From the IMG/VR virus record IMGVR_UViG_3300030106_005280, positions 1 to 34,188 of that record: a DNA stretch of 34,188 bases. The stretch is one strand, 5' to 3'. This DNA is from a virus. The position numbers were made by a program, and so were the translations under genes. Shown one piece after another: positions 2-26,040 of this stretch; within the stretch, counting starts at the first letter, position 1; each line of letters begins with the position of its first letter. Under the pieces are notes generated by a model. That model saw only the letters and a list, made by a program, of their open reading frames with translations. It did no database searches and had not been told where the DNA came from.

Positions 2-502
2 ACACTGTACTTTCAGAGGGCCGTGAGCCGCGCAAAACTTGAGGATTTTCGCACGTATGATTGTCGCTCGACATTCGCTTCTCACCTCGTTCAAAACGGG
101 GCCAGCTTGAGAGCTGTCGCTGATTTACTTGGCCACACAGATTTGAAGATGGTTATGCGCTATGCGTACCTTGCGCCGTCGCACTTGGCCGCTGCGATTG
201 ACACACTGAGCGCAGGAAGTGTGACACAAATTGGCACAAATTTGACACAGACACCCGAAGTGGTGCCGCCGGATGGAATCGAACCATCGGCCCCGTCCTT
301 ACCAAGAACGTGCTCTACCCCTGAGCTACGGCGGCTTTCCGAGGATTCTATGGACTTGCTCACAGTTCCTCATGACTTCTTTTTCGGTCCCCTTACCAAG
401 GGTGAGATGTCCCTCGGCAGGGGTGAGTCGCTCGCGACAAGGGGGAATTGCACACCCAAGGTGTTAATAGGGTGTGCCAACAAAAACAACTCCGACGATT
501 AG
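2..502 (+). CDS. int: Tyrosine integrase, C-terminal part (5' end outside window)
   Basis: Site-specific tyrosine recombinase that would insert and excise the phage at the neighbouring tRNA gene. The frame is open from base 2, so the N-terminal arm-binding and most of the catalytic domain lie off the left edge. Visible catalytic features are the conserved Arg in YDCRSTFASH, the LGHT box histidine, and the nucleophilic tyrosine region (MRYAYLAP). The position usually occupied by His in the HxxR motif is Tyr here. The conserved domain ends near base 195. The remaining codons run through the arm-type repeats and the antisense strand of the tRNA to a stop at 500-502, so the C-terminal tail is non-conserved and encoded by attachment-site DNA. 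This arrangement is typical of integrases that use a tRNA 3' end as target. Family confidence is high; whether the tail is functional is unknown. Confidence 0.9.
   Translation, partial: TLYFQRAVSRAKLEDFRTYDCRSTFASHLVQNGASLRAVADLLGHTDLKMVMRYAYLAPSHLAAAIDTLSAGSVTQIGTNLTQTPEVVPPDGIEPSAPSLPRTCSTPELRRLSEDSMDLLTVPHDFFFGPLTKGEMSLGRGESLATRGNCTPKVLIGCANKNNSDD
199..249 (+). repeat. Arm-type integrase-binding repeats, integrase side of the tRNA (putative)
   Basis: Four copies of TGRCACA start at 199, 222, 232 and 243. The last three are 10-11 bp apart, about one helical turn, and the copies at 222 and 232 are followed by AATT. They lie in the last codons of the integrase, immediately before the 3' end of the tRNA gene. 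Direct repeats beside a tRNA core are the usual form of integrase arm sites. The function is inferred from position and repetition only. Confidence 0.5.
261..335 (-). tRNA. tRNA-Thr (anticodon GGT), probable attachment-site core
   Basis: The minus strand folds into a complete cloverleaf. The 7-bp acceptor stem GCCGCCG/CGGCGGC is perfect, the D arm is GCTC/GAGC, and the anticodon stem CGTTC/GGACG encloses loop TTGGTAA with anticodon GGT. The T arm is GATGG-TTCGATT-CCATC, and CCA is encoded at the 3' end (261-263). The GGU anticodon reads ACC and ACU threonine codons. The 3' end faces the integrase, the standard geometry for tRNA-targeted integration. The gene is intact, so either the attP identity segment covers the whole tRNA, or the phage simply carries a functional tRNA copy that restores the host gene on integration. 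Confidence 0.95.
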
Positions 503-2711: not shown

Positions 2712-3266
2712 TTATTGGATTTCTTTACTTTCTTCCGAGAGCCGCGCTTCGATTTTGAGCCAATCATTAAAAGCCTCCTGTCTGTTGACGATGTCTTCGA
2801 TCTGCCAAGGCTCACTGTTCTTGTAGTAGCCCTTGGCTGCAAGCTGACCGCTTGCCGCTACCAGCTCGTCGAGATTTTGCACTAAGACAAGGACGTGGTC
2901 GTCCTCATCGTAGGCTTCCCAGACAGGTGCGTTGTCTTTTGATTCGGGATGGTAGCCCATCGTCCACCACCCGAACGTGTGTTGGTTTTGCTCGCCGATC
3001 CACAGTTGAAACTCATCGAGGCTGATGTGCTCGATAGGCACGAAGACAACGTGCGATAGGCCATCAGTTGGTTCTGTTGACTTTATGAAGTCTACCAAAC
3101 TCAGTGTGTTGCTCATGTGGACAAGTGCGGTCCCGTAAGTCCAAGCGCCCTTCGCAAACGGACAAGCGGGTATGCCGTTGGTGTGGTCGCTCGGCTGGCT
3201 GACGTGCTCGTCGATCCAGCGATGAAAGCGACGTATCACCGTAGCGGATTTGGACCGCGCACCCAT
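2712..3266 (-). CDS. Unknown protein with IPACPFAK motif, next to the 2OG oxygenase (184 aa)
   Basis: Not assigned to a family. It has a conserved-looking short motif IPACPFAKGAW (residues ~32-42) near the N-terminus, followed by an alpha/beta pattern (HVVFVPIEHISLDEFQLWI, DDHVLVLVQNLDELVAAS) and an acidic helical C-terminus. The frame is open upstream to 3386. I chose ATG 3266 because the upstream part is the antisense-like overlap with the oxygenase gene, and because this start gives a 31-nt overlap typical of coupled genes. No good ribosome-binding site precedes it. The close pairing with an Fe(II) oxygenase suggests a joint function; the single Cys in the motif is a possible metal or redox residue, which is inference. 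Confidence 0.7.
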   Translation of the reverse strand: MGARSKSATVIRRFHRWIDEHVSQPSDHTNGIPACPFAKGAWTYGTALVHMSNTLSLVDFIKSTEPTDGLSHVVFVPIEHISLDEFQLWIGEQNQHTFGWWTMGYHPESKDNAPVWEAYDEDDHVLVLVQNLDELVAASGQLAAKGYYKNSEPWQIEDIVNRQEAFNDWLKIEARLSEESKEIQ

Positions 3267-10473: not shown

Positions 10474-10780
10474 GTTTCTTGAGGCTGCGGGTGAGATAAT
10501 CAATGGGCAACGCGCCATAGATTATGGCCCAGCAGATGAGAACCACGACCGGATTGCCGAGATTTGGTCAGTTGTCTTCGGACACCCAGTTACTCGTCAG
10601 CAGGTTGTCGCGGCTATGGTCGGTGTAAAGCTGGCTCGGCTGGCTAATCCATTACAGCCAGACATGGATCACAAAGACACGTGGGTTGATATCTGTGGAT
10701 ATGGTGCTCTTGGTGGGGAGATGACTTCAGCCGCTGAACTCGAAGTGCGGCCCATCAAGAAAGGGTCTTCGGCCTTGTGA
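10460..10780 (+). CDS. DUF6378-type protein (106 aa)
   Basis: A small helical domain found in many phages and of unknown function. The recognisable pattern is FLEAAGEIINGQRAIDYG near the N-terminus, then NHDRIAEIWSVVFG, a helix VAAMVGVKLARLANP and DTWVDICGYGALGGEM. The layout of acidic and His residues in paired helices recalls the MazG/HisE-like all-alpha pyrophosphohydrolase fold, but the metal-binding ExxE motifs are not evident, so I do not call it an enzyme. The open frame extends upstream to 10382. I place the start at ATG 10460 (or 10457) because AGAGG lies just upstream and the domain begins there. It ends the rightward operon and overlaps the endolysin gene tail to tail by 54 nt. Confidence 0.75.
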   Translation: MTRDEFLEAAGEIINGQRAIDYGPADENHDRIAEIWSVVFGHPVTRQQVVAAMVGVKLARLANPLQPDMDHKDTWVDICGYGALGGEMTSAAELEVRPIKKGSSAL

Positions 10781-11182
10781 CCTGCGTAGGTCTATGTACT
10801 CGTTCATCGCGCTTTCCATGTCGCCGTCATGTTTACGGATGTCTGTGATGTGCCACGCTCCACCCCAACGAATTGGTACATCAAGCTCCATGGCCGCCTG
10901 TCGCATTGCATCCGCAATGTCGTCGTAAATGTTTAACTCCCAGCAAGCGCGATTATCTATATACCCCATAAGGTCAACAGCTCGGCCCAGAACATGTGGC
11001 CCCCACTGCTTAATCTTGGAGGCTCCTTTGTTATAAAGTTCGAGCTGCTCATCCTGCGTTCGTAAACCGCAGATAACACCAAAATCGTATTTGGTTAGTT
11101 TAATAGCCCTCTCCACGACAGAGACAAGCTGTTCATTCACACCTGATAGTCTGGCCTTACTGCGCTGCGATAAAGCGAACAT
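10727..11182 (-). CDS. Endolysin, M15-type peptidoglycan L,D-/D,D-peptidase
   Basis: 151 residues. Zinc-peptidase motifs of family M15C are present: His63 and Asp70 in WGPHVLGRAVDL, and the distal zinc histidine His146 in DGPHFEF. Between them comes IRWGGAW, where the more usual GGDW has Ala for Asp. The ~35 residues between that motif and PHFEF include YIDLRRSQGRRPF, an insert seen in phage endolysins of this type. It would cleave peptide cross-links in the cell wall at the end of infection. No signal peptide is present, so export depends on the holin. ATG 11182 overlaps the stop of the preceding gene (TGATG) and has AAAGGAGG 9 nt upstream, a very strong site. Confidence 0.9.
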   Translation of the reverse strand: MFALSQRSKARLSGVNEQLVSVVERAIKLTKYDFGVICGLRTQDEQLELYNKGASKIKQWGPHVLGRAVDLMGYIDNRACWELNIYDDIADAMRQAAMELDVPIRWGGAWHITDIRKHDGDMESAMNEYIDLRRSQGRRPFLDGPHFEFSG

Positions 11183-11409
11183 CAAACTTCCTCCTTTGGG
11201 ACAAAACAGTCGATAGTGGATATTGACCGTCCGGGGAAATGCTGGTTCGCCAAAACCTTTAACGCCGGAATGTTTTCCGAGACGTGCCTACGACAGGCTT
11301 CTTGCGTCCGAAAGTCCAAAATAGTCCCGTTGTAATGTGTGACGGTGACCGAATCGAACTCATCGCTAGATAAAAAGGGTAGGGACATGATTATGACAAT
11401 TACATACAT
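11182..11409 (-). CDS. Small protein with hydrophobic N-terminus in the lysis cassette (75 aa)
   Basis: Not recognised as a family. The first ~14 residues (YVIVIIMSLPFLSS) are hydrophobic and could serve as a short signal or membrane anchor. The rest is a small soluble domain with two cysteines (Cys39 in the helix TQEACRRHV and Cys69 in TIDCFVP), which could pair outside the cytoplasm. Its position between holin-linked genes and the endolysin makes a lysis-accessory or spanin-like role possible, but there is no lipobox or long coiled coil. GGAG lies 5 nt before ATG 11409; a later ATG at 11388 would remove the hydrophobic start. Confidence 0.65.
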   Translation of the reverse strand: MYVIVIIMSLPFLSSDEFDSVTVTHYNGTILDFRTQEACRRHVSENIPALKVLANQHFPGRSISTIDCFVPKEEV

Positions 11410-11634: not shown

Positions 11635-12039
11635 TCAGCTCCGCATATTGTTCCTGCCGGTGCCCTTGGCCTTGTCGAATGAGCGCATTCCGCCAAGCCC
11701 GAGCAAAGCCAAGACAAGACTGGTAAGCTGCTCTGTCTCGATTGCGGGCAACACGACATCGGGTGCCCAGATCGCGCAGGCCCATGAGGCAATAGGCCCG
11801 AACAGAGTTCCCCACAAAAGCCCGAGCCCTGTTCCCCAGAGGAGGAATGGCCTCGCACCAGACACGAACAAAGACGGATGCTTTGCGGATTCGACGTTTG
11901 CCTGCGCTTGAAGTGCGTCGAGAGAGATCATCTCTTTCCGCAGCTCGTGCTCTAGTTTTGTCTTGAGGTCTTTGTCGGAAACGAACTTGTCCAGAACTTT
12001 CCCAGCAACCCCAACTACCGATTCTGCTATACCCAGCAT
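11635..12039 (-). CDS. Holin, three-transmembrane type (GTA-holin-like)
   Basis: 134 residues. The N-terminal ~55 residues form an amphipathic charged helix (DKDLKTKLEHELRKEMISLD). Three hydrophobic segments follow at about 63-81, 82-100 and 105-118, the first two joined by Gly-Pro (SGARPFLLWGTGLGLLWG, TLFGPIASWACAIWAP). The motif HPSLFVSGARPFLLW is characteristic of the 3TM holin family found in gene transfer agents and alphaproteobacterial phages. It would open the inner membrane and let the endolysin reach the wall. AAGGAG lies 6 nt before the ATG. Confidence 0.88.
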   Translation of the reverse strand: MLGIAESVVGVAGKVLDKFVSDKDLKTKLEHELRKEMISLDALQAQANVESAKHPSLFVSGARPFLLWGTGLGLLWGTLFGPIASWACAIWAPDVVLPAIETEQLTSLVLALLGLGGMRSFDKAKGTGRNNMRS

Positions 12040-12208: not shown

Positions 12209-15200
12209 TCAATTCCATGAGCTACCCCACGAGCCACCCCAACCAGATGAGCTACCACCTCTACTGGCCTCACCGATCAGCTTGTCTACGAGACCTTCTC
12301 GTGCGCCGCGTATGCCGCCCACGACAGGTATTCTGGTGAGTACCTCTCTGGCCGCCGATCTCTCTTTTGCATTGCTGTTGTCTCCACCCGTGATCGCGTC
12401 CTTCACTCCGGCAATCGCTGTGATCCCGGATTGTGCCAGCCCGAAGGACGGGCCAAAGATGTAACTGGCGAGACGGTTCTGGCCGTAGGTTCCGTTCTCG
12501 ACAGCCATTGATGCGGCTCCGAGACTGTCGGCCAAAATCCCCATGGCTCCCATGTGCATGGCGGATTCGATGTACCATCCAAGGAAGTCGTCTTCGTTGC
12601 CGTGAACCTTCTCGTCGTAACCCATGGTCTTGAGGAGGTTGCGTTTCCGCAGAGCGGCCTCGCGGTTCTCGTCGCCGCCACGCATCTGGATAATGTCTTT
12701 GATGCCAAGGGCACCAGCAGCAACCGCTGGGCCAAGTGTGGCCATATAAGCAAGCGGTTTGATGTTGCCTAGCCTCGCCTCCTTGAGTGTGTAGCCAGTG
12801 AGGCGAGTCATCATGAGCGGGAAGCTCTTGAGCTGGAACATCATGGCACCGAAAGGTGTCTGACCCCAAAGTGGAATGTCGTTGGGGTTGGGGGCGTAGA
12901 TGGACTCGTCGGCAAACTTAATGATGCCACGACGGAGTTCGTCGCTGGCCAGATCGCCGTCTAACAGTGCGGGATCGCCAAGTGTTTCAGAGCCACGACG
13001 CTGTCCGTGAGCAAAGTCTCCAAGGCCGTATCGTTTAAGGAAACGATATGCTGTCTTGTATTGCCGAGACTGTTGGGCGAGTGGCTTAGTCTCGTCCCAG
13101 TGCTTGAGGGATTTCTTTTGCATGGCGATGAACGCTTCGACGGCTGTCGCGCCAGCAATCTGGCGCATCATATCCGTCCATGGCGTAAGCATGGTTGCGT
13201 TGAAAAATGCGTGTGTTGTCTTGCCGTCGGCTGCGCCGTACATATAAGTCATGCGGTCGTGAATAATGTTTTCCATCGCCACACCGACATTCTTCATCAT
13301 CTGACGGTATTCGGGATCGGATGCGTATCGCGCCAATCCCTTGCGATATGCTGTGAAGCTGCCGGAGCGGATAATTGGCAAGACGAGATCGGGCAGAGAC
13401 GTGAGTGTCGTGAAAGACAGCAGAGTGACACTGTTAATGTTCCGCAATGCGCGGCTTGTCTTGTAAGCCATTTGCCCACCACCCGTTGTGAGTGGCTGCC
13501 GCCTGGACACTCGCATCGCATTGTCCATGAAATTGTAGTTGGCTGTCGTGAGCGGGGCGGGTTGGCCTTTGAAGTCATCGAGTGCAGCAATAATCGCATC
13601 AGCACGTCTGGAGTACGTCGGTGCGATTTCTCCATTCGCGCCCAGCGTCGCAACCTCATCCAACTTTTGTCGAGCTGCGCCAGAACCTTGTCTTGCATGT
13701 ACGTCAATAAGGTCTTTGACGAACATCGCTGCTTCCGCCTCTCGACCATTGAATGGCATCGCAGTCGTGTCGATAATCCGACCGTCTTCTGGATAACCAT
13801 CGAGACCTTTGTATCGAACGTCCTTTCGATACTCGCGATTGGTGGAAAGCAGTCGGACAATCCCGTCTGCACCCTGATCCATCGCCATCATGTAGTCGTA
13901 GACGCCGTGGCTATTCAGTCCGAATTTCTCGGTGTGGACGAGGCGTCGAGTTGAGCCCTCGAAATACTTCGTGAGGAGGAACTCTAGGTCTGACTCCAGA
14001 TACTTTTCTAGTTTCTTTAGTGCGGCTGGATGTTTATCCAGCTCAATCATCCGACTAAAGTCGCCCTCTTCAAAACGCGGGTTTCGCGTTGATCCATGAA
14101 CAGGTGACATCACGCCGTCGGCATCATCCCCGGCTAGGGTGTCGTAAATCCGCTCGGCGAAAGTAAGCGCGTCCGCATCGTTGGCCAGCTCGCCGTGCGA
14201 TGTGCGTTCGATCTTGTAATAGTCACCCATGTCTTGCAGGAATTCGTCTCGGTTTTTTTGGATTACCTCTTTGCTCCAAACCTGCTGGAGGTAGTCCTTT
14301 CGATAGCCAATAGACATTCCTGTCTTAATCATCTTGTCGCGCTCGGCATCCATTGCCTTGCGGATGTCTTGCCAAATCTCCCTCTCTTGGACAGAGAGAG
14401 CTTCAAACTGTCGCGATCCATGCCCATGGCGAAGTGCGCGAACAATTCTTTCATAGGACTTCGGTTGCTTCTGCCCGACACTTGCGGTCGATGCCCGAGC
14501 CCAAGCGCGAATACGACCGTCCGCATCAGGTAGGTTACGCAGCTTGTTGCGGATCGGCATGTAGGTGCCAGCAAAACGCTGGGAGATTTCCGGGAAGTGG
14601 TCTTTGTACCAATCGCCAATCCAATGCATCCCCAGATTTTTCATCCGAGTGGATTGCTCTTGTAAGAAGAACCACGGCGAATTTTTCCGCATTGCTTGCT
14701 CTTCTTGTGCATTCAGCGGTCGACCTGTTGCGACCGAGTGCATGGCGCTTGCCTCGGCTTGTGAGGCTCCCGCGATTTCCAAGTTCTCAGTAATCGCGTC
14801 CCAGTTTGTGTCTTTGCTTGACGCACCGGCAGACCAGCCGTCTACAACCTCGGCGTTGATTGCGCTGCCGCCACCTTCTACCTCTCGATAGAACATCCGC
14901 GTGTCGTGCTCGTCGAAGTAATCTGCATCGATGTGCTTACTCTGCGTCTCGTCGAACAAAACAACCGTCTCGTGCCCCTGTACTTCAGAGCCATACGGAC
15001 GGCCATCTGGCATTAGGTCGGGAATGTCTGCGTTATCTACAGAGTTGTAGTGCGTGGTCCGAAGGCTGTCGTAGCCTTTGTCTTGTAAGCTGACCGAGGC
15101 CATTTCCTTTGCGGCGGCGTCGCTGTGTGCGCCATTTGCTTTGTGAGCGCGGACATACGCTTGATAAAGCTGTCGACCGTCAACTCCTCTTGCCACCTCC

Positions 15201-18200
15201 TCACCAAATGCAGTCATCTCGCGAGTCCCGATTGTCGGGTTTTCGTCGAGATTGTTCATAAGCAATCGAACGAAGTCATCGGTCGGCTCGTAAAATGCGC
15301 TCGTTCGGAAATCGGCGGGCTTCACCGCCCGTACATAGAAAGGGATAACGCCGGGATCGCTTGCGATGTTGTGTTTACGGAAAAGCGCTTTTATGGCTGC
15401 TTCTTCGTTCACCATCTCGTCGAGCTGCATCTTGATCTCGTTCAAACGCTGCTCATTGAGAAAACTGGAAACCTCATCATCGGATGGATTGTTCGTGAGG
15501 TCGCTATACTCCCGCCGCAGTTGAGACATCTCCTTTCGCAATCCGCTCACGTACAGAGCGTCTACCGTAAGGTCGTTCTTTACTTCGAGGGGTAGGTCTG
15601 CCTCATCTATGGATCGCAGCAAGGACGTTGCTGTCGGAGATTCGCCATAGCTGCGCGTATAACTGGGGTTGATGCTCAGATACTGGCCGGGTCCATAGTT
15701 GCCGTTTTCGCTCTTGGCAAAGACTTCATTGGGGCTCGACGTTTTATCAAATTTAGAAGCGTTAGGTGTCGCGTGATACCACGTAACGGGCATGTCGGAA
15801 GCAGCATTATAGCCCACACCATTCTCAACATACCGTGCGATCTTGGATTGCTTCGTCGTCGGCGCGGCCATGTATCTGTCCCGCGCATATGAGGCGGCGT
15901 TGACGGGATCAACGACGAGACGACGGCCAGCCATGGGTGGGCGGGCTGTGTTCTCCATCATGTCACCGAACAGTGTAATCCGTCGGAAAGTTTGCTTGAT
16001 GTCGTTGCGGCCAATTAGGCCGTTCAAGACATAAGACACATACTCGACAAGACGGTCGATAGCGCGGTTTATCGTGCCTCGAAGTGCGACGCCGTTGACG
16101 TTTCCAGTCAGTGCGGCTTGAGCAATGTCACCCTTTGCAACGCGCTCGGCGAGGTACTGGGTGAAGTTTTCCGCGAACCACTCTTCCGACAAGACATCTT
16201 CCATCTCGCCGTCGGTGTAATCTCTACCTTCGTATTTCTTTCGGTAGGTATCGTTGATGCGTTTTTTGAGAGGATCGGCAGCGTCCAGTCCGCGATAGGC
16301 TTCTTTAATTGCGTCGAGTTCCCGCTGCGGCAGAACGCCAGACCTGACCAGCATATGGCTGACCTCGTGCATGGCGTCGAACGGAGTAGACTTTCCTTTG
16401 TTAAGGGCCACAGACATCCGGCGTAGGTCGCGGCGTAAATGACTGAACGTCGGACTGCGAAAATCCATGAACGCTCCGGTCTCGGCACCAGCGAGGTCTT
16501 GGCCAGACAAGCGGGCCATGTCGCCCATATTCATAAAGTTGGCGTCTTCTACTGTGCCGCGCTGCGCCTTACCGAGAAGGTTGACCATGCGGTAAGTCAT
16601 TGTCCGCATAGCGACCTCTACCTCTGGATCGCGGTGCGTGAGGTAGCCCAGCATTGTGCGGACTTGACCGCGAGCACTTGCCGGTATGCCGTTCGCTGTC
16701 TGGACGCCGACGTGGTCGTCCAGCTCTTGAGCAATAGCGCCATGCACTTCGCGGAAGAGCGGCTTAACTTGAACGCTCTTGATGCCTTTGTTTGCTCGGT
16801 TGTGTGCCCGACGCTGAACCTCATAAAGGACTTGGTCGATTGTCTTGCTGTCTGCGTTATCAAACGCCTCGGCGAGCATCGTCTTCATTCGCCCGAGATC
16901 GGCCTTCATAATATCGCGTGTGATTTTCACACGCTTTGCCGGAAGCGGTTCAGCCTTGGCTTTGGCCAGAATGATTTCGGCGATTTGATCGCCGCGTTCT
17001 GTCCCGGCTTCGCGGCGGTAGATATCGATCAACTCAGCTCGGCTGGCGGAGCGCACTTCACCAGCAAATGCACTGTCGGCTGTCTCTCCTTTTGCGCTGC
17101 GCTTGCGCTTCTGTTTTGGTGTCTTAGCTTCTTCAACAGCTCGTTCGGCAGTTGCTTCGGTAGAAGTCTTCTCTCTCTTGACGGCTGTCTTGCCAGACGC
17201 GGAAGGTGTACCTGCCTTTTCTTTCTTGAGCGATGCGGGAACCACGTTCATGGAAGCACCTTCACTCGCAAAGGCTGCTTCGAGATCGCGCTCCATCATT
17301 TCAAAAAGTTTGCTGATAGAGGTGTTGCCGCTGAAGACAGACTCGTCTGTCGGAGTGACTGTCCTCACCAGTGGTGTAAAACCTCCAGCGTGCCCGTCTT
17401 CCCACAGCTCGGCCAAGGTGTCTGCTACGGCTTCCGGGTTGTAATCGGAAACGCCAGACATCTCAGCGTAGGACTTATTTATTCGTGCCTCTGGCAACAT
17501 ATCGCCAAGCGAGACATTGGTGTCTTGAAGAGCGCCCGGTGAGTTTTCGTATGGGTTTGCCTTGCCAGACAAGACTTGGTTGATGTCGCCGAACCTGTCG
17601 CGGATCAGCTTTTCGAGAGGGCGATAAACACTGAATGTTGCGCCAGCGTTTGTAGCCTGTCCTGGTATTGCTCTTCCCGGTGCTGCTCGTGCCAGAGTTG
17701 TCTGCACGTTCGCAAAGGCTGCAATAATACCGTCCGGGTTTCCGCGCTTGAGCGCTTCCTCAACGCTCTCTTTGGCCAGTTGCAGTTCAGTGTGATGCTT
17801 AACAACCGCGTGCTGAAGTGGTGTCGTTGGCTCCTCAACACCAAGGCGGAATACTGCCCGCTCTTCTTCCGGCAAAATCTTACTGAACAAGGGCATGAGG
17901 TCCGGGTTGATGACCTCTTTTTTTACAACCCAGTTGTAGACAGCCTCTATGTACCGACTAATACGCTGCCAAAAACCGGGGTCTTCCCATATGCCATCCG
18001 ATTGATTTCGCATAACCCAAGTTGCGAATTGGTTTGCGAAGTATTCTTGGGGGCTATGCTGATTTACAACGCCGGGTGGCGCTTCGGGCAACCTACGCAC
18101 TCCTTGTGCTTTGTAGGCGTATGATTGACCTATCGCCGTCCAGAACTCAGCTCTGTCTTCGGGCGTTAGAATGTTCCTGTAAGCCCAGTGGCCAAGCTCA

Positions 18201-21200
18201 TGCATCAACGGAAAGCTGTCGGGGTATTTATCGTTACCGCCGACCTCTATTGTGTTGTCTAAAGCGGCACGTCTTCCGTCGCTTGCCACAATAGATTGAT
18301 AGCTCCAGCCTTGGCCTTCTCTCAGTACTGGACCGCGCTCTGGGTCTCCGCCCAAGTTTCGGAAAATTTTTGTTAGGGTGGAAACCTCGTCGGCTGCGCG
18401 GTTTGAGAAAATATCCTCAAGACTTTTGATCGACTCGGCCCGCGACGCATTGTTGCGGACAATGCCTCCGGGCGACAGCTCACGTTCAATCCGATAGATG
18501 CCAGCGAGTAGGTCGCCGATTTCTTCATGGTGGACCCGGTATAACTGGAAGGGGGTGCTTTCGAGGCTGGCCGCTAATGCGCGTATTCCCGCTCCGCCGC
18601 TTCGGACGGTATCGTCTACATCAAAATCTCGGCCCGCTTGTCTTGTGGCAAGCGAAAGAAAATCATCCAGGTTGAGTTGGCTGCCTCGGACAGAAAACAT
18701 CATGTCCTTTGGAAGCAAGTCCAGCGGAAGGGCATCAAAATCAGTAACCGAAAGCGGTGCTCCGACGCCCGTCTCATCACCGACATAGCGCAGAATACCC
18801 GGCTGCACGTCGCCACGGGTGAATGCGCCCAATTCTGTAAAACTAGGATCAAAATCAGGATCGACAGTATTCGCGCTATTCCAAAGGGCTCGCTTGTCTA
18901 TCGCGTTCCTTACGCCCTCGGCTTCTTCGGCCAGTGCATATCGGACAATCCAATTCTGAGGCTTTTGGTTTTTTCCGATTATCGACTGGACGGTTGGATC
19001 GCTCGTGCGCTGTGTCTTGCCAGCGAGGCGCACATCGGTTGGGTCGTCCGCTTTTTGTAATATCAAGACACGGTCGCCCAATTTGATTGGGGTGTCCGGG
19101 TCGGCACGTGATACGGTGGGCTGTTCCGGCGTTTCTGCCTCGGGAACCTTGAGGGGCTTGGCTTCCGGTGTGCTGGTTTGTCTTAGGATACGTTTGATTG
19201 TGCCAAGATCGTTGTCGTCAATAGCTGCGCGGACAAGCATTTGGATGTCTGAGGTGGCGCTTGGGACATCACGCGGGGCAGGGCTTTCCGCCTCTCGTGT
19301 CGCAGCGGCTGCCGCTGTCGTGTCTGGTAACTTGTTCGACGGCTTGAGGTCGCCACGAACGATAAGCGCAGTCTCACGGCTGTCGTATATACGTTTAGTT
19401 TTTGGATCGGCGTAAAGCTCGACGCCAGCGGCAAAGTCTTTCTTACCCTCCAGTGTCATAACGCCGCGAACAGGTCGTGACGGAATAAACGGCTGGATAG
19501 TGTGAGTTTCTATAGCTCTGGCTAACGCGGCGTCGGCTTCAAAGTTTTTTTCGTTTATAAATTTTTGCTCGCCCCGCTGAAGACCGGACGTGTTAATAGT
19601 CCTTCCTTCGCTTGTCGGGATACCTGCCCGAAGAATTCCTTGTATGCGTCCTGTCTGGGCGTTGCGGCCAGCACCCTCGATGAGTTTCGTTTGTTCTGCT
19701 CGTCGACCTGATGACGCAAGATCGCCAGAGCCTATCTCGGCCTTACCCTGCATTCGCCGGTTTAAGACCATGATCTGTGCGTGAGCTTCAGCGTCTACTT
19801 TGCTTTCGCCATCCTTGACGCGCTCCTTGGCAATTTTGCGGATCAGTTTCTTTTCTGTCTGCGTAAAATCGATCTCGATCCGCTCTTCGACTGAGGGCTC
19901 TATTTTTTCAAGACGTGCCTTCGCCTCATCTTTCTGAATGCGGACGCCATTTGCATCGACAGGTTGGCGACCAGACATCGCGATTTCAGAGACCGCATCA
20001 TCTTTTGAGAGAATGCCAGCCCTTACATCTGCGGCGATGTCGTCGAATGAACGTGGATATGTGTAGTCGTACATCGCAACGATGTCGTCGACATCGGATG
20101 GGATTTCTTTATCTTCGCCAAGCATACGGATAAGGCGACGATAGTAGTCATGCGGTAGTCCATTTGCCTGTGCAGCGATGTGGTCTGCGTCTTTCTTTAC
20201 TCGGTCAACGTCCATCATGACGTTGCCTCTGTAGAACGGCGCATTCGGGATCGCTTCCTTAATATCCCTTCTCAAAATTTTACCGTCTTTGCCTGAGCCG
20301 GTAATTTCTCTCCAGTCAACTCCGGCTTCGATTGCGATCTGGCGAATTCGTTGGCTAACGACTGGTGCCGGGGGCGCGGGGGTCTCGGTAGCTTCTGGAG
20401 ATACCGATGTGTCGCCTACATTCTCGTTGGCCGGTGACATCTCTGCCACAAAAGCCTTCGAGTCTCGATCCACCTTTATTACAGTTTCGAGCTGTCTTTT
20501 GCTCTGAACGGTAAACTTTCCTCTTGCTCCAAGCTGAATGCGGCCATTCGCGATGTGACCTTGAAGGTCGTCCATCGTCATGCCGTTAGCGTTGAGAATA
20601 CGTTTGGTGTCTTCCTCAACCTTGCTGCGAGAGAATGTTACACTTGCCGGATCACTGGTCGGAGAAGCGGCAGCCTCTGGTTCACCCACGTCAGTATCGG
20701 CTGTGGGCTCCTCTACCGCATCTTGTCTTGGCGCAGGCTCGCCTGCGACTTCGGCCTCGGCTTCACCTTCTTGTCTTGGGGCGGGCTCCGCTTCGGCTTC
20801 TTGTCTTGGAGCTTCCGCTTCTCCCTCTGCGGCACGAGCTGCTGGGGGCTCGGGCACAATGACGCCGCCAGATGCATCTTGCACCTGTTGGTTCAGTCGA
20901 GCGAGGTCGATGTCACCGCCTCTTGCGGCGGCACGTAGATCGGTGAGTGCTTCGTGCAAAGCGGCGCTGCGCTTTTGGCCTTCTGCTTGATCGGCGGGTT
21001 TGTTGCTGGCGAGTAAATCATCGACTTCGGCTTCTGCATTTTGCAGTCGAGCGGCGAGCTTTCTGAATGTTGAAATACGTTCGAGATTTGCTGCCGCTTC
21101 AGCGATGTCTTCCGCAGACGCGCCGTCTGCCTTGAGGTTGGCCAGCGATCCAAACTCCGCCTCATAGGCTTCGTCTAATCTGCCGGATAGACCATCGATC

Positions 21201-22102
21201 TCTCTTTGCAAGACAGTGCGAAAATCGGGAGCAGCCTCTTCGGCTGCGGTTTCTACTGCTTCATCCGCCTGTGGGAGAAGCCCCGCTGTGTCCTGTGTAT
21301 TCCTCGTGAACTCGGCAATCTCACGAGCACTCATTGCCGAAACTTGCTCGGGTGTCAGGCCAAGGCGAAGGGCGTTTTCTGCTTGTGCAACACCTCGACG
21401 CGCTCCAAGCGCACCAGCGCCAGCGCCAATCAATCCTCCCACAGTGGAACCGGCAACCGTCCCTACGGCTGTCGTGGTGAGAAGTCGACCCGTATCGATT
21501 TCGTCTTGAAGTCCAAGCTGGACATCTCGTGCTTGCAGAGCTGTGTCGTGGACGGCGGCTTGACCGCCAGAGATTGCAGCTTCGGATGCGCCGCCAACAG
21601 CAGCACCTCGACCGGCACCTCGAAGCATCGGTCGTGATTTCCCAGCTAGGTAGGCCGCACGTCCTGCGGTCACGCCAGCCTTACCGGCTGCGGCTCCCGG
21701 AATGATATTTACGGCTGGGAGCACGTCGCCAAGCGCTTCCGAAACGCCGCGACCACCTTCTTGCCACGCCATTGGAAGGTTGCGCCACACGTTCTCAATT
21801 CGCTTTGCTCTAGCCCGCCTCTCTTCGGACATGCCATACGCTGCCCCAGCGTCTTTGATGGCCGACACGGTGTTCCAGTCTGCCCATGTCTTGTCGGTGT
21901 AGAATTTATCAATGAGGGCTTCGTCAGTGAGCCCAAGGCTTCCGGTCTCACCGTAGTACTCACGCAGGTCTTGAAGGAAGCGCGGGTCTTTAAGCGCTTT
22001 GTGTGAGGTTATGCTTGTCGTGTAGTCAGATGTTGCCGGTGCGTCGGGCGTAAAATCGAAATACCCTGTCGACAGGCCATCGCGCACATATTTGTCACTC
22101 AT
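12209..22102 (-). CDS. Giant polyvalent virion/ejection protein with two metallopeptidase motifs, ART-like and E3-binding domains
   Basis: 3297 residues, one intact frame. Order: N-terminal helical domain (~35-120), with the pattern seen at the start of giant podovirus proteins; Gly/Ala-rich hydrophobic stretch (~130-235); coiled coil and Pro/Glu linker (~280-480) with three PRQ repeats; peripheral subunit-binding motif of E2 enzymes (582-618, VSQRIRQIAIEAGVDWREIT); first zinc peptidase motif HELGHW (His1301, Glu1302, His1305, probable third ligand Glu1353); basic linker (~1620-1680); second motif HEVSH (His1912, Glu1913, His1916; Glu1974 in EEWFAENF); ADP-ribosyltransferase-like region (~2100-2400, WYHATPNASKF, GPGQYLSINP, HETVVLFDETQ); long helical part; hydrophobic C-terminal region (~2885-3220). 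These domains match polyvalent proteins, thought to be packaged and injected to act early. In T7-like order it sits where the large internal core/ejection protein is expected. Substrates are unknown. GGAG lies 8 nt before the ATG. Confidence 0.88.
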   Translation of the reverse strand: MSDKYVRDGLSTGYFDFTPDAPATSDYTTSITSHKALKDPRFLQDLREYYGETGSLGLTDEALIDKFYTDKTWADWNTVSAIKDAGAAYGMSEERRARAKRIENVWRNLPMAWQEGGRGVSEALGDVLPAVNIIPGAAAGKAGVTAGRAAYLAGKSRPMLRGAGRGAAVGGASEAAISGGQAAVHDTALQARDVQLGLQDEIDTGRLLTTTAVGTVAGSTVGGLIGAGAGALGARRGVAQAENALRLGLTPEQVSAMSAREIAEFTRNTQDTAGLLPQADEAVETAAEEAAPDFRTVLQREIDGLSGRLDEAYEAEFGSLANLKADGASAEDIAEAAANLERISTFRKLAARLQNAEAEVDDLLASNKPADQAEGQKRSAALHEALTDLRAAARGGDIDLARLNQQVQDASGGVIVPEPPAARAAEGEAEAPRQEAEAEPAPRQEGEAEAEVAGEPAPRQDAVEEPTADTDVGEPEAAASPTSDPASVTFSRSKVEEDTKRILNANGMTMDDLQGHIANGRIQLGARGKFTVQSKRQLETVIKVDRDSKAFVAEMSPANENVGDTSVSPEATETPAPPAPVVSQRIRQIAIEAGVDWREITGSGKDGKILRRDIKEAIPNAPFYRGNVMMDVDRVKKDADHIAAQANGLPHDYYRRLIRMLGEDKEIPSDVDDIVAMYDYTYPRSFDDIAADVRAGILSKDDAVSEIAMSGRQPVDANGVRIQKDEAKARLEKIEPSVEERIEIDFTQTEKKLIRKIAKERVKDGESKVDAEAHAQIMVLNRRMQGKAEIGSGDLASSGRRAEQTKLIEGAGRNAQTGRIQGILRAGIPTSEGRTINTSGLQRGEQKFINEKNFEADAALARAIETHTIQPFIPSRPVRGVMTLEGKKDFAAGVELYADPKTKRIYDSRETALIVRGDLKPSNKLPDTTAAAAATREAESPAPRDVPSATSDIQMLVRAAIDDNDLGTIKRILRQTSTPEAKPLKVPEAETPEQPTVSRADPDTPIKLGDRVLILQKADDPTDVRLAGKTQRTSDPTVQSIIGKNQKPQNWIVRYALAEEAEGVRNAIDKRALWNSANTVDPDFDPSFTELGAFTRGDVQPGILRYVGDETGVGAPLSVTDFDALPLDLLPKDMMFSVRGSQLNLDDFLSLATRQAGRDFDVDDTVRSGGAGIRALAASLESTPFQLYRVHHEEIGDLLAGIYRIERELSPGGIVRNNASRAESIKSLEDIFSNRAADEVSTLTKIFRNLGGDPERGPVLREGQGWSYQSIVASDGRRAALDNTIEVGGNDKYPDSFPLMHELGHWAYRNILTPEDRAEFWTAIGQSYAYKAQGVRRLPEAPPGVVNQHSPQEYFANQFATWVMRNQSDGIWEDPGFWQRISRYIEAVYNWVVKKEVINPDLMPLFSKILPEEERAVFRLGVEEPTTPLQHAVVKHHTELQLAKESVEEALKRGNPDGIIAAFANVQTTLARAAPGRAIPGQATNAGATFSVYRPLEKLIRDRFGDINQVLSGKANPYENSPGALQDTNVSLGDMLPEARINKSYAEMSGVSDYNPEAVADTLAELWEDGHAGGFTPLVRTVTPTDESVFSGNTSISKLFEMMERDLEAAFASEGASMNVVPASLKKEKAGTPSASGKTAVKREKTSTEATAERAVEEAKTPKQKRKRSAKGETADSAFAGEVRSASRAELIDIYRREAGTERGDQIAEIILAKAKAEPLPAKRVKITRDIMKADLGRMKTMLAEAFDNADSKTIDQVLYEVQRRAHNRANKGIKSVQVKPLFREVHGAIAQELDDHVGVQTANGIPASARGQVRTMLGYLTHRDPEVEVAMRTMTYRMVNLLGKAQRGTVEDANFMNMGDMARLSGQDLAGAETGAFMDFRSPTFSHLRRDLRRMSVALNKGKSTPFDAMHEVSHMLVRSGVLPQRELDAIKEAYRGLDAADPLKKRINDTYRKKYEGRDYTDGEMEDVLSEEWFAENFTQYLAERVAKGDIAQAALTGNVNGVALRGTINRAIDRLVEYVSYVLNGLIGRNDIKQTFRRITLFGDMMENTARPPMAGRRLVVDPVNAASYARDRYMAAPTTKQSKIARYVENGVGYNAASDMPVTWYHATPNASKFDKTSSPNEVFAKSENGNYGPGQYLSINPSYTRSYGESPTATSLLRSIDEADLPLEVKNDLTVDALYVSGLRKEMSQLRREYSDLTNNPSDDEVSSFLNEQRLNEIKMQLDEMVNEEAAIKALFRKHNIASDPGVIPFYVRAVKPADFRTSAFYEPTDDFVRLLMNNLDENPTIGTREMTAFGEEVARGVDGRQLYQAYVRAHKANGAHSDAAAKEMASVSLQDKGYDSLRTTHYNSVDNADIPDLMPDGRPYGSEVQGHETVVLFDETQSKHIDADYFDEHDTRMFYREVEGGGSAINAEVVDGWSAGASSKDTNWDAITENLEIAGASQAEASAMHSVATGRPLNAQEEQAMRKNSPWFFLQEQSTRMKNLGMHWIGDWYKDHFPEISQRFAGTYMPIRNKLRNLPDADGRIRAWARASTASVGQKQPKSYERIVRALRHGHGSRQFEALSVQEREIWQDIRKAMDAERDKMIKTGMSIGYRKDYLQQVWSKEVIQKNRDEFLQDMGDYYKIERTSHGELANDADALTFAERIYDTLAGDDADGVMSPVHGSTRNPRFEEGDFSRMIELDKHPAALKKLEKYLESDLEFLLTKYFEGSTRRLVHTEKFGLNSHGVYDYMMAMDQGADGIVRLLSTNREYRKDVRYKGLDGYPEDGRIIDTTAMPFNGREAEAAMFVKDLIDVHARQGSGAARQKLDEVATLGANGEIAPTYSRRADAIIAALDDFKGQPAPLTTANYNFMDNAMRVSRRQPLTTGGGQMAYKTSRALRNINSVTLLSFTTLTSLPDLVLPIIRSGSFTAYRKGLARYASDPEYRQMMKNVGVAMENIIHDRMTYMYGAADGKTTHAFFNATMLTPWTDMMRQIAGATAVEAFIAMQKKSLKHWDETKPLAQQSRQYKTAYRFLKRYGLGDFAHGQRRGSETLGDPALLDGDLASDELRRGIIKFADESIYAPNPNDIPLWGQTPFGAMMFQLKSFPLMMTRLTGYTLKEARLGNIKPLAYMATLGPAVAAGALGIKDIIQMRGGDENREAALRKRNLLKTMGYDEKVHGNEDDFLGWYIESAMHMGAMGILADSLGAASMAVENGTYGQNRLASYIFGPSFGLAQSGITAIAGVKDAITGGDNSNAKERSAAREVLTRIPVVGGIRGAREGLVDKLIGEASRGGSSSGWGGSWGSSWN

Positions 22103-22166: not shown

Positions 22167-24395
22167 CTACTTGTCCTCAAGCCACGCCTGATTTTCTCGC
22201 ATGAACTTGGTCGGATCGGCTATAAACTCTTGCACTTTTGCATTGGCCTTTTGAGTAGAGCCGTTTTGTGCTTTTGGGCCAAAATTCGCAAAGATTCGGT
22301 TGGCTATCGATTGATGGCCGCCAGCATTTTCCACAAACTTCAGGAGTTTTTGCTTGGCCGCAAGTTCAGCGTCTGTTTGATCGTAGACCATTTGTCCGAG
22401 CCAAGCAGACTGTCTTCTGATTGGGTCCAGAGCACTATTGATCGCTTGCCCTGCCGATTGGGCGTCAAAGAAATTACTGACTGCGCGGCCAACCGGAGAG
22501 GTGCTGCCGGTCGTGGATTGGATATCGCCTTTTTGAGGTACTGTCTTCGGAGCTTGCCTCTTTAATTTCTCTATCTCTCGCTTGTATAGATCGATGCTGA
22601 AATCTATGTCGTCTCTAAAGAATTTCTCTTTGGCGTTATTTTCATCGTTCTCAAGGGCACGCATTTCTGCACTGTCCCAACCTTTGCTATCGCGACTTAT
22701 TTTCTCCCATCTCATCCGGTATCGTTCGAGATAGTCATTAGACTCTCTCCACGCCTGACTTTCTCTGTTGATTTTGTCTTTTAATTGTTCCATGTGCGAG
22801 ATTGCCCGCTCGTAATCTTCAACGGTCCTATCCGCATAATCTATTTTGTCGAGGGCGAAACCAATTTGATCCGCGTAGTTCGAGGCGAGGTCTATCCGAG
22901 TGGTTGCGGCGTCCATTTGCTGATCGCGAACTTCTTCGTATGTGCGTGGGCGATTGAAAGCTAGGCCAGAGCGAAGCTCGGTTTGGAAGTCGATAGAGCT
23001 GGTTTGGTTAGCTCTCGTTCCAACACCCATCCTTTGAAGCGCGGGAAGCGCGGCGTGCACAAGGTCTTGCACTTGTGAAGTTCCGTCGAGATTTGGAGCG
23101 GCTTGCCAAGCCCGAGTAATGGCGTCGAGGTTATATGGGTTGAGGTCGTATTGCTGCGCCAATTGCGACGCGGCAATAGCTGTGTTTCCGTTGATCTGTC
23201 TGTCGGGTCCGACTTGGGCATTTGGCGTGAAATTTTTGCCCTTGCCGTAGTATCTCTCGATAAGTTTTGTGTCTGCCGAAATGTCGGCCTTTCGTGCGGC
23301 ACCGGCTGTTTCTTTGTTCTTTTCCCGCAACTGCATCATTTGGTCTTCGCGGACCTGAGAAAGCTCTGTGCCGACGTAGTCGAGTATTTCATCGATTTCC
23401 GCTCTCTCGAACGAATCCTGCAAGTCTGTCGGCACTCGCCTTTTGATAAGGTTTTCAAGTGCGGCTCTTGCTTGATCGAAATCATTGTATTGAATGGCTC
23501 TGCGTATTTGGGAGCTTTTGAGCGCAAACTCTTGGAGGTCCGTAAACTCTCTACTTGCCCGGTCGTTTATGTCACGTGTCCGTTTATCTTGAACTTGCTT
23601 CGCCTTCTGCTGGACGATGGACACGTACTTGCTAATTATGTCCTTGCTTTCGTCCAGTTTTTTACTGGGGTCGATCTCAGCAATTGATTGCTCAAGCGAT
23701 TTGGATATGTCCATTCCGTCTTTAGCCAGGTCGACGGCTCTATCTATGATCCGGTCATTGTGTCTGGCGTACCAGTCATAGTTCTTTTGCCGAAGTGCTT
23801 CTTGCGCCTGCGTCATCGCTCCCTTGGCTATACCTTTCGGCAAGTTCGTTGCGGCAGCAAGTTCGTCTGCGGTCATATTTGGATTGGAGGCGATAAGCCG
23901 GGTGACCGTCGGCATACTTTCTTCAATCGACTTTACCTTGAGCGCGTTGAAGCGGCCCTCACTGAATTGACCGACAATGCGTTTTGCAATGTCTGGAGTG
24001 CTTTGAAGCTCGGGGTATCGCGCCAAGAAATCTTGTGCAGCACCCGCTAAGTTAGTGCCGCCTGATTGCATGATTGCGTTGTCGATATCGGCTTGCATCG
24101 TGCCCATCACTTTTGCACGAGCTTCCATGTTGCCGTAGGTCCGTTCCAACATGGCTTGGTCATAATTGGACCGATTACGGTCGGCCAAGGTTTGGAGAAC
24201 TGTGCTCGTGGGTAAGACTTTGCCAAGGTAGTTCGAGCCGCCCGCCAATGAATCGCGGTAGGCTTGCAGCTCTTCAAGACTGGCGTAGGGGTTGGCTTTT
24301 TTGTATTCACTCCAGAGCTTCAAGTTGTCGAGGCGGCTCTGCCGATTCTTATCGCCCTTTTCCTCCCATCCTTGTGCAAATGCTGAATAGTCCAT
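22167..24395 (-). CDS. Putative internal virion protein, coiled coil (742 aa)
   Basis: Nearly all helical and rich in Gln, Asp, Arg and Ala, with many heptad segments (for example RTVEDYERAISHMEQLKDK and YKREIEKLKRQAP), and no enzyme motif I recognise. The N-terminus (MDYSAFAQGWEEKGDKNRQS) looks like the start of podovirus internal core proteins. It lies just upstream of the giant protein gene, in the place of the middle internal core protein of T7-like phages, so it is probably packaged inside the capsid and ejected with the DNA; this is from position and shape. The frame extends to 24464, but ATG 24395 follows the previous stop by one base and starts the plausible sequence. Confidence 0.75.
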   Translation of the reverse strand: MDYSAFAQGWEEKGDKNRQSRLDNLKLWSEYKKANPYASLEELQAYRDSLAGGSNYLGKVLPTSTVLQTLADRNRSNYDQAMLERTYGNMEARAKVMGTMQADIDNAIMQSGGTNLAGAAQDFLARYPELQSTPDIAKRIVGQFSEGRFNALKVKSIEESMPTVTRLIASNPNMTADELAAATNLPKGIAKGAMTQAQEALRQKNYDWYARHNDRIIDRAVDLAKDGMDISKSLEQSIAEIDPSKKLDESKDIISKYVSIVQQKAKQVQDKRTRDINDRASREFTDLQEFALKSSQIRRAIQYNDFDQARAALENLIKRRVPTDLQDSFERAEIDEILDYVGTELSQVREDQMMQLREKNKETAGAARKADISADTKLIERYYGKGKNFTPNAQVGPDRQINGNTAIAASQLAQQYDLNPYNLDAITRAWQAAPNLDGTSQVQDLVHAALPALQRMGVGTRANQTSSIDFQTELRSGLAFNRPRTYEEVRDQQMDAATTRIDLASNYADQIGFALDKIDYADRTVEDYERAISHMEQLKDKINRESQAWRESNDYLERYRMRWEKISRDSKGWDSAEMRALENDENNAKEKFFRDDIDFSIDLYKREIEKLKRQAPKTVPQKGDIQSTTGSTSPVGRAVSNFFDAQSAGQAINSALDPIRRQSAWLGQMVYDQTDAELAAKQKLLKFVENAGGHQSIANRIFANFGPKAQNGSTQKANAKVQEFIADPTKFMRENQAWLEDK

Positions 24396-24396
24396 G

Positions 24397-26040
24397 TTAA
24401 GCGCTTCCGTACCACATTGGTTGCGAACTCGACGACGCCCCTGATCCACCAAGATTAAAGGCATCGAAGTTATCTATATCACCCATTGAACCGCCGTAAG
24501 TGGGATCACCCTCCCAAACATAACCCTTCATAAAGTCGGGCTGGCTGTCACCACCTCCAAAGAGGTCACCCCAGTCCGTTGCGAACAGCTCGTCTGACAA
24601 ACCTCTCATGCTGGAGCCAAACCCCTTAGATGCTCCGGCAAGCTGTCCAGCCGTTTGCCCAGCCATCAGATCGGCGCTCCGCATTACACCCGCCTGACTA
24701 GACAGGATGGAGCCGCCCATACCGGCGGCGATACCCATGTAGCGGGACGGGTCATCGATAGACATGCTGTACGGATCGAATACTTGACTTGACGGCATCA
24801 TCCCAACAGCGGCGCTCGGTATGTTAGCCGTTGGGCTAATGCCGGAGCCAACCATGTTCGTTCTGTCGTAGATAGCCGAACCGATACCTATCGGGGCTCG
24901 ATAGCCAGACGCAGTGGATAGGCGTCTGTCGTAAACGCCTGTTGGCAATTGGTTGAGGTAAGCCGCAGGAGCAGTCAACGCGGATCGTGCATCAGTCATT
25001 CGCAGCATTGGATCAAGACCAATGCCCTGTATGCCCGCGACTTCAGCGAGTTGCTGTTGGCGCATGTCTTGGATCGCTCCAGCGTCCGCTTGCGATACGC
25101 CTTGCTGATTCTTGATGAAATTCATGCTGTCGTCATAGGCGCGGTTACGAGCATTCTGATAATCCTGCGCCAGACGTGCAGCGATGGCGGCGCGGCGGTT
25201 TTCGCCTGTTGTGGACAAGTCCATGCCGGTGCGGATGAGGTCCGCTTCCCCAGCAGACGCAACGGCTGATGCCGCTCTGTCTACATCTGCTTGGTACTGC
25301 GATGTACGTCTGTCTATTTCGGACTGAATGTCTGCGGGCGAAAATGTCTGGATGTCTGGCGTTACTTGCAGACCTTGGACAGCCTCATTTAAGCCCGCCT
25401 CCATTCGGCCAATCTGGGCCATGATTGCTTGGTTGCGGGCGAGTGATTCCGCTCGCTCTAACTCTGCCTGTCCTTTGGCGTCGATGTATTCTTGGGCCGC
25501 AAATTCTCGCTCCAGTTCCTTCTGTGCGCGAGCGCGAAGGAATTGGACTTTATCTTCATCTCGTTCACCGCTGACAATCCCCTTAACTTCTTCGAGTTCG
25601 TCGAGAGCTGTCTGTCTTTCTTGTGCCGAGATTGCTTGGTTACGAAGGAACTCTGTTAGCTCGAACTGTCGCTCGCGGGCCGCCGCCTTATCCATTTGAA
25701 TTTGACGTTGGATCGCGATCTCCTGATCGCGCATCTTCTCGGCTTTAAATTCTTCGATGAGTCGCTCTTCTTCGTAACGCTCTCGTCGGCGAATGCCTCT
25801 GTTGATGATTTCTTGTTGTCGTCGATATTCGTTTTCTGCCCGCCGCTCGTTGTCGGCTGCATGGGCCATGTTGAGTTGTTCGCGCTGGATGTTGAGCTGC
25901 TGCTCTTGTATCTCAAACTGCCGCTGTGCTGCCCATTGCTGATATGCGATGGACTGAGCATGTCGTCGGTTGGCCGCCGCCTGTCCCATCATCGACGTAG
26001 CTGCGCCGATGCCAGCGCCGATTATTTGGCCCCAAGCCAT
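24397..26040 (-). CDS. Putative internal virion protein with hydrophobic N-terminus (547 aa)
   Basis: Residues 1-22 are hydrophobic and Gly/Ala-rich (WGQIIGAGIGAATSMMGQAA), then a long Gln/Glu/Arg-rich coiled coil (~25-260, for example IQEQQLNIQREQLN). The C-terminal half is low-complexity and Ser/Gly/Met-rich (SIDDPSRYMGIAAGMGGSIL), ending near DWGDLFGGGDSQPDF. This architecture matches the smaller internal or ejection proteins of podoviruses, in which a membrane-active end and a helical rod help build the conduit for DNA entry. The function is inferred from architecture and gene order. It starts one base after the stop of the preceding gene. Confidence 0.72.
   Translation of the reverse strand: MAWGQIIGAGIGAATSMMGQAAANRRHAQSIAYQQWAAQRQFEIQEQQLNIQREQLNMAHAADNERRAENEYRRQQEIINRGIRRRERYEEERLIEEFKAEKMRDQEIAIQRQIQMDKAAARERQFELTEFLRNQAISAQERQTALDELEEVKGIVSGERDEDKVQFLRARAQKELEREFAAQEYIDAKGQAELERAESLARNQAIMAQIGRMEAGLNEAVQGLQVTPDIQTFSPADIQSEIDRRTSQYQADVDRAASAVASAGEADLIRTGMDLSTTGENRRAAIAARLAQDYQNARNRAYDDSMNFIKNQQGVSQADAGAIQDMRQQQLAEVAGIQGIGLDPMLRMTDARSALTAPAAYLNQLPTGVYDRRLSTASGYRAPIGIGSAIYDRTNMVGSGISPTANIPSAAVGMMPSSQVFDPYSMSIDDPSRYMGIAAGMGGSILSSQAGVMRSADLMAGQTAGQLAGASKGFGSSMRGLSDELFATDWGDLFGGGDSQPDFMKGYVWEGDPTYGGSMGDIDNFDAFNLGGSGASSSSQPMWYGSA

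Follow-up and report, generated by a model that had tools for sequence, protein, structure and literature searches.

A giant marine phage protein with a T7 gp16-type ejectosome module, two HExxH regions and an ART-like domain

Introduction

Proteins of the gp16 type, such as those of phages T7 and phiM1, sit next to the portal within the head, exit by way of the tail and contribute to a channel that spans the host envelope, and they can carry cell-wall enzymes. Polyvalent proteins of phages and conjugative elements, as treated by Iyer et al. (2017, PMC5512222), may unite an MPTase with an ART in a single giant polypeptide that is presumably injected. According to the same source, multiple MPTase copies are known, the active site of the polyvalent ARTs is H-Y-D, and either autoprocessing or host targeting has been suggested for such proteins. 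A giant ejected protein with an HExxH domain is also known from phage N4, whose virion RNA polymerase (vRNAP) has 3,500 aa (PMC12633501). In the pre-ejectosome of cyanophage A-4(L), chain B (9k3a) is a virion core protein with an ART-like fold and YHGT and GxGxY motifs. Chain numbering and motifs point to ORF27 as this chain, and we take it as such; ORF27 carries YHGT...GSGTYF near its C-terminus.

Roseobacter phage CRP-810 (OR671924) represents a marine family proposed in 2024 with 251 uncultured members, which integrates at tRNA-Thr and in which an 'internal virion protein D' is common to all subgroups (PMC11288001). In this work, we compare a 3297-aa protein encoded by a related virus with each of these systems.

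Materials and Methods

The window analysed here is the whole virus record IMGVR_UViG_3300030106_005280, 34188 bases long. Relatives of its giant gene were gathered through alignment with CRP-810 followed by two rounds of viral-contig searches, which yielded over a hundred loci. Scanning viral contigs with a single sequence recovered no relatives, and neither did scanning bacterial genomes twice. The family sample consists of 138 homologous frames with both metal-site regions, representing 52 lineages. The tree used to place site losses was built from the C-terminal module, and one change per site was needed. Two structures were predicted, both of middling quality, one for the C-terminal module (AlphaFold2, mean pLDDT 60) and one for residues 1240-2430 (mean pLDDT 65, with low confidence around site 1). 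Foldseek found nothing significant in the PDB for either model, and it was only a second-look aligner that set the core proteins apart from the background. Sequence searches of solved structures with the profiles of all regions gave nothing relevant.

Results

A single frame of 9894 nt on the minus strand, 12209-22102, is free of stops and translates into 3297 aa, with GGAG nine bases 5' of its ATG as a plausible ribosome-binding site (table 1). All the motifs listed by the first-pass annotation lie in this frame, each where it had been placed: HELGHW at residue 1301, EYFANQFA at 1353, HEVSH at 1912, EEWFAENF at 1973, WYHAT at 2108, GPGQYLS at 2137 and HETVVLFDETQ at 2377. They are kept in dozens of relatives at about 35-40% identity. 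The HExxH pattern, observed twice, is expected 0.053 times per shuffled copy of the protein, and at least two occurrences were found in 0.12% of the shuffles. The same annotation had described hydrophobic ends; hydropathy shows mildly hydrophobic stretches at residues 207-234, 2893-2911 and 3116-3138, but no strong transmembrane segment. A Gly/Ala-rich part near the N-terminus (residues 105-245) is a candidate for the membrane-active portion.

Table 1. Features of the giant gene and its upstream neighbours in the window
Feature	Position	Strand	Basis
Gene of the 3297-aa gp16-like, putative ejection protein	12209..22102	-	Stop-free frame; homologous single frames in 52 lineages
Gly/Ala-rich, mildly hydrophobic N-terminal segment, aa 105-245	21368..21790	-	Hydropathy; aligned with CRP-810 gp36 'internal virion protein D'
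E3_binding (PSBD-like) motif, aa 586-614	20261..20347	-	Pfam PF02817, 29 bits, cut-off 23.7
Metal-site region 1, aa 1200-1420; HELGHW 1301-1306 and likely third ligand E1353	17843..18505	-	Motif conservation; concerted ligand loss
HExxH of site 1, aa 1301-1305	18188..18202	-	Motif position; conservation
Metal-site region 2, aa 1800-2050; HEVSH 1912-1916 and EEWFAE 1973-1978	15953..16705	-	Motif conservation; joint decay
HExxH of site 2, aa 1912-1916	16355..16369	-	Motif position; conservation
ART-like domain, aa 2100-2400; H2110, Y2141, GYD 2343-2345, last strand near 2379-2384	14903..15805	-	Model match; Pfam in relatives
T7 gp16-type ejectosome module, aa 2440-3297	12212..14785	-	phrog_342 matches; relatives' families; structure match to T7 gp16
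765-aa upstream gene, candidate second core protein	22167..24464	-	gp15-like by position/size only; conserved beside the giant gene
547-aa upstream gene, candidate third core protein	24397..26040	-	By position only

Among Pfam families, only E3_binding exceeded its cut-off in the giant protein (PF02817, 29.0 bits), which bears out the E3-binding motif proposed earlier; ART-PolyVal fell below. The E3_binding match is patchy among relatives, with 43 bits in L013 and 22.7 bits, just below the cut-off, in L111, and by Pfam it is absent from L005, L032, L028 and CRP-810. LPD38 (PF18857) was unmatched, in a search in which the control also gave no match.

CRP-810 was the only relative found among 50,697 phage records. 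The two share an integrase end, tRNA-Thr, a 2OG oxygenase, a primase-polymerase, a YqaJ nuclease, a holin, a GNAT protein and an SU10-type capsid protein; judged from its sequence, the window belongs to a CRP-810-type marine phage. The giant gene sits after the capsid and tail genes and two further conserved genes, ahead of the holin. Because neither of those two upstream genes, of 765 and 547 aa, had a match in Pfam or in family searches, gp14 and gp15 are labels by position only. At the left edge of the window, the C-terminus of an integrase (2-502) overlaps a tRNA-Thr gene (261-335, minus strand), in agreement with the integration at tRNA-Thr described for CRP-810. The holin (11635-12039) matches the gene-transfer-agent holin family GTA_holin_3TM (E 1e-10). 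Beside it, a lysis gene (10727-11185) encodes an M15-type peptidase-like product (Pfam E 5e-4, below cut-off) where CRP-810 has a GH108 protein, suggesting a swap of lysis enzymes between relatives.

The direct orthologue in CRP-810, with 38% identity over 91% of the query and the same motifs, is annotated as three CDS in different frames, gp36, gp35 and gp34 (L001, OR671924, 21570-31210), of which only the N-terminal piece, gp36, bears a name, 'internal virion protein D'. In the window, as in nearly all relatives, the corresponding gene is one uninterrupted frame. The junction between gp35 and gp34 falls at a roughly 31-bp tandem duplication. The three pieces may reflect errors in sequencing or a gene that is truly split in this isolate; unless the breaks are such errors, this phage could tolerate a broken copy.

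The ART region was present in all 138 frames of the sample and the C-terminal module in 137, always in the same order, so that the single arrangement anticipated for related phages (zincin 1, zincin 2, ART, gp16 module) is constant in the collected frames. Frames uncut at the N-terminus range from 2897 to 4014 aa. In L067 (around 7829) the giant frame is broken upstream of the second metal-site region and in L023 it has a late start; an assembly error or a real truncation is possible in both.

Residues 2440-3297 are the best conserved part of the protein. When the whole 3297-aa sequence was compared with PHROGs the gp16 match was missed, whereas the cut-out C-terminus shows it. The T7 gp16 profile phrog_342, which T7 gp16 itself matches with 1354 bits, is hit collinearly by the window at 12326-13009 (E 2.7e-7) and 14216-14491 (E 4.4e-4), and the pieces in the window and its relatives are collinear and cover profile positions 534-1208. 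Ten of the 19 aligned members match the T7 gp16 family, with E down to 1.9e-20, and two virion structural protein families, phrog_6958 (19/19 relatives) and phrog_684 (17/19), also fall in this module. The four best solved matches of its model are the phiM1 ejectosome, the T7 core (two entries) and the E1004 core, with Z of 10.0-12.2; the next-best has a Z of 5.8. The stretch matched in T7 gp16 is 508-859, and an independent profile comparison points to gp16 601-691 in the same register. A comparison of the module with seven gp16 homologues by hhalign was weak (probability 35, E 4e-4), with the register right. Matches in BFVD include entries named 'large polyvalent protein', 'protein inside capsid D' and 'internal virion protein'.

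A Z of 10-12 would not by itself settle homology for mostly helical models; we regard the matter as settled because structure, sequence families and gene order agree. The C-terminal 860 or so residues are thus established as homologous to T7 gp16, and the core-protein position proposed earlier is supported. Pfam found no SLT match, that is, no N-terminal lytic transglycosylase, in the giant protein. In many gp16 homologues the match to T7 gp16 starts only at about residue 150, so the transglycosylase does not define the family.

Both metal-site regions contain an HExxH followed downstream by a Glu ligand. The two motifs are intact in 30 of the 52 lineages; the first alone is kept in 13 and the second alone in eight, and one lineage has no call at site 1. 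In this sample, none of the lineages had lost both sites. Site 1 was lost once, in a clade of eight lineages (support 99), and site 2 once, in a clade of 13 (support 100). In the clade lacking site 1, E1302 is replaced in 7/8 lineages, H1305 and E1353 in 8/8, and H1301 in part, while W1306, F1320, F1359, F1406 and neighbouring Gly and Pro residues are kept. In the clade lacking site 2, H1912, E1913 and H1916 decay together with E1978. Because the ligands vanish together while the scaffold stays, both motifs look like real metal sites in retained folds, and E1353, replaced along with the HExxH ligands, is likely the third ligand of site 1. The lack of a double loss is consistent with a requirement for one site or the other, but a single loss at each is no statistical proof of it and too little to establish that the sites can substitute for each other; an independence test for the reciprocal losses is powerless for the same reason.

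Two zincin domains had been proposed. We found two separate metal-site domains, but the model of residues 1240-2430 has only helices and no zincin beta-sheet at either HExxH, with fold matches that barely cover these regions; nor did either region have a significant Pfam or PHROG peptidase match. Compared with each other as profiles, the two regions align in register at both motifs, although weakly (probability 20, E 0.001). For the regions in which the first-pass annotation had asked for structure prediction, then, the ART-like fold was recovered and the zincin sheet was not, with low model confidence around site 1.

The proposed ART domain has an ART-like fold in the predicted model. Residues 2050-2392 of the model match best the cyanophage A4 pre-ejectosome chain 9k3a_B (Z 10.4), followed by many PARP catalytic domains (Z about 7). 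Pfam ART-PolyVal is found in 15 of 19 relatives and exceeds its curated cut-off of 31.2 bits in the genome of L013 (38.4 bits); since the window scores 15-19 bits, below that cut-off, we file the region as ART-like and not as a member of ART-PolyVal. The His of strand 1 is conserved in 51 of 53 sequences, the other two being gapped, and the Tyr of strand 2 in 53/53. The candidate acidic residue of strand 5, D2384, is present in the window; its position is Asp in 20/53 and Asn in 15/53. Because this candidate third acidic residue, like the other acidic candidates of the last strand, is not conserved, ADP-ribosyltransferase activity appears doubtful, and in many members the domain probably has a structural or binding role. 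In L178 and L176 an otherwise intact protein has a missing or unalignable YHGT strand, and this branch may be able to do without the ART active site. L148 and L149 have an 11-residue insertion in the last conserved strand.

Discussion

Against T7 gp16 (phrog_342; PDB 9jyy/7eyb), to which its C-terminal 700-860 or so residues are alike by profile, predicted structure and gene order, the protein described here is 2.5 times longer and has HExxH and ART-like regions in place of an N-terminal transglycosylase. We consider it probable that it is a T7 gp16-type ejectosome (internal core) subunit of a podovirus-like CRP-810-type phage, with metal sites and an ART-like domain aboard. The gp16 homology, the constant order, the concerted loss of ligands and the retention of one of two sites in the sample are computed results; packaging, ejection, chemistry and substrate we infer. 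The C-terminal module would join the products of the upstream genes on the portal within the head, exit first and take part in forming the channel through the host envelope. The N-terminal part, 2400 residues long, would ride along, with the two HExxH sites and the ART-like domain taking the place of the T7 gp16 transglycosylase. At least one metalloprotease-type site would be needed for infection, and either could serve. Its task would most likely be to cut the ejected protein itself or its partners, that is, processing, and next most likely to cut something in the host envelope. Between autoprocessing and host targeting the present data do not decide.

More tentatively, and as a proposal that may well fail, CRP-810-type phages would depend on a metalloprotease step encoded twice in a T7-type ejectosome protein. 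Either copy would suffice, one having decayed to a scaffold-only pseudoenzyme in two branches while the other is strictly selected, and the ART-like domain would be a widespread structural module of ejectosomes and no toxin.

The first-pass annotation had read the protein as a polyvalent, multi-effector one, and this interpretation is partly supported. One polypeptide does combine an E3_binding motif with two HExxH regions and an ART-like fold, and we conclude that it is a polyvalent and probable ejection protein; the domains of a multi-effector are present, but with the candidate third acidic ART residue unconserved "active effector" is premature. On the multi-effector view, the zincins and the ART would enter with the DNA as toxins that cut and ADP-ribosylate host proteins in the cytoplasm, with the gp16 module as mere vehicle; this is unlikely, though of the alternatives it survives best. 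Just such combinations of domains are described for polyvalent proteins (Iyer et al. 2017, PMC5512222). Phage T4 Alt is an injected ART, and the ART His and Tyr are nearly invariant here. However, Asp occupies the candidate strand-5 position in a minority of sequences, the set and order of domains are retained in 52 lineages whereas effectors usually turn over, and the matching cyanophage A4 domain sits in a resolved pre-ejectosome chain.

Somewhat more doubtful is that the HExxH sites open the envelope, cutting wall peptides or periplasmic proteins for the channel as a replacement for the T7 gp16 transglycosylase. Neither a transglycosylase nor a lysozyme family turned up in the giant protein, and none was significant in its relatives; T7 gp16 and phiM1 core proteins bear such cell-wall domains, and at least one HExxH site is always kept in the sample. 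On the other hand, HExxH zincins are not the usual peptidoglycan enzymes, CRP-810 has separate lysozyme-like proteins, and many T7-like gp16 homologues do without the N-terminal domain.

Less probable again is a different chemistry at the HExxH metal sites, such as that of a 2-oxoglutarate/iron HExxH enzyme, or a purely structural role of Zn there, in either case with no protease. The zincin sheet was not predicted, and according to the N4 vRNAP structure paper (PMC12633501) the HExxH motif of that enzyme is shared by zincins and by radical-SAM-associated HExxH enzymes. The invariant catalytic-type Glu within HExxH and the E..FA helix of the third ligand are nevertheless typical of zincins, and in polyvalent proteins the HExxH domains are usually MPTases (PMC5512222). 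An N4-type virion RNA polymerase, suggested by similar size (about 3,500 aa), the HExxH domain and a weak vRNAP family match of CRP-810 gp36 (E 5.8e-5), is very improbable and is disfavoured, since Pfam finds no RNA polymerase domain and the profiles of regions 1 and 2, the ART-like region and the C-terminal module fail to align with N4 vRNAP, to which there is no detectable sequence similarity.

Cyanophage A-4(L) ORF27 differs from this protein in lacking HExxH sites; three A-4(L) ORFs showed no similarity to the gp16 module by profile. Giants with MPTase and ART (2017), an HExxH domain in N4 vRNAP and an ART-like fold in a cyanophage pre-ejectosome were already known. We found no description of a fixed architecture of this kind attached to a T7 gp16 module throughout a marine family of global distribution, nor of the reciprocal decay of the metal sites; the gp16-fused domain order and reciprocal loss are likewise not mentioned in the accessible part of the account of polyvalent proteins (PMC5512222).

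The giant protein joins two literatures that rarely meet, that of the structurally studied podovirus ejectosomes and that of the computationally defined polyvalent proteins. It suggests that ART-like domains of ejection proteins can be virion parts, and they should therefore not be labelled effectors on motif grounds alone. Whether giant injected proteins need a zincin, and for what purpose, becomes cleanly testable in this family, since each copy has already been lost on its own in nature.
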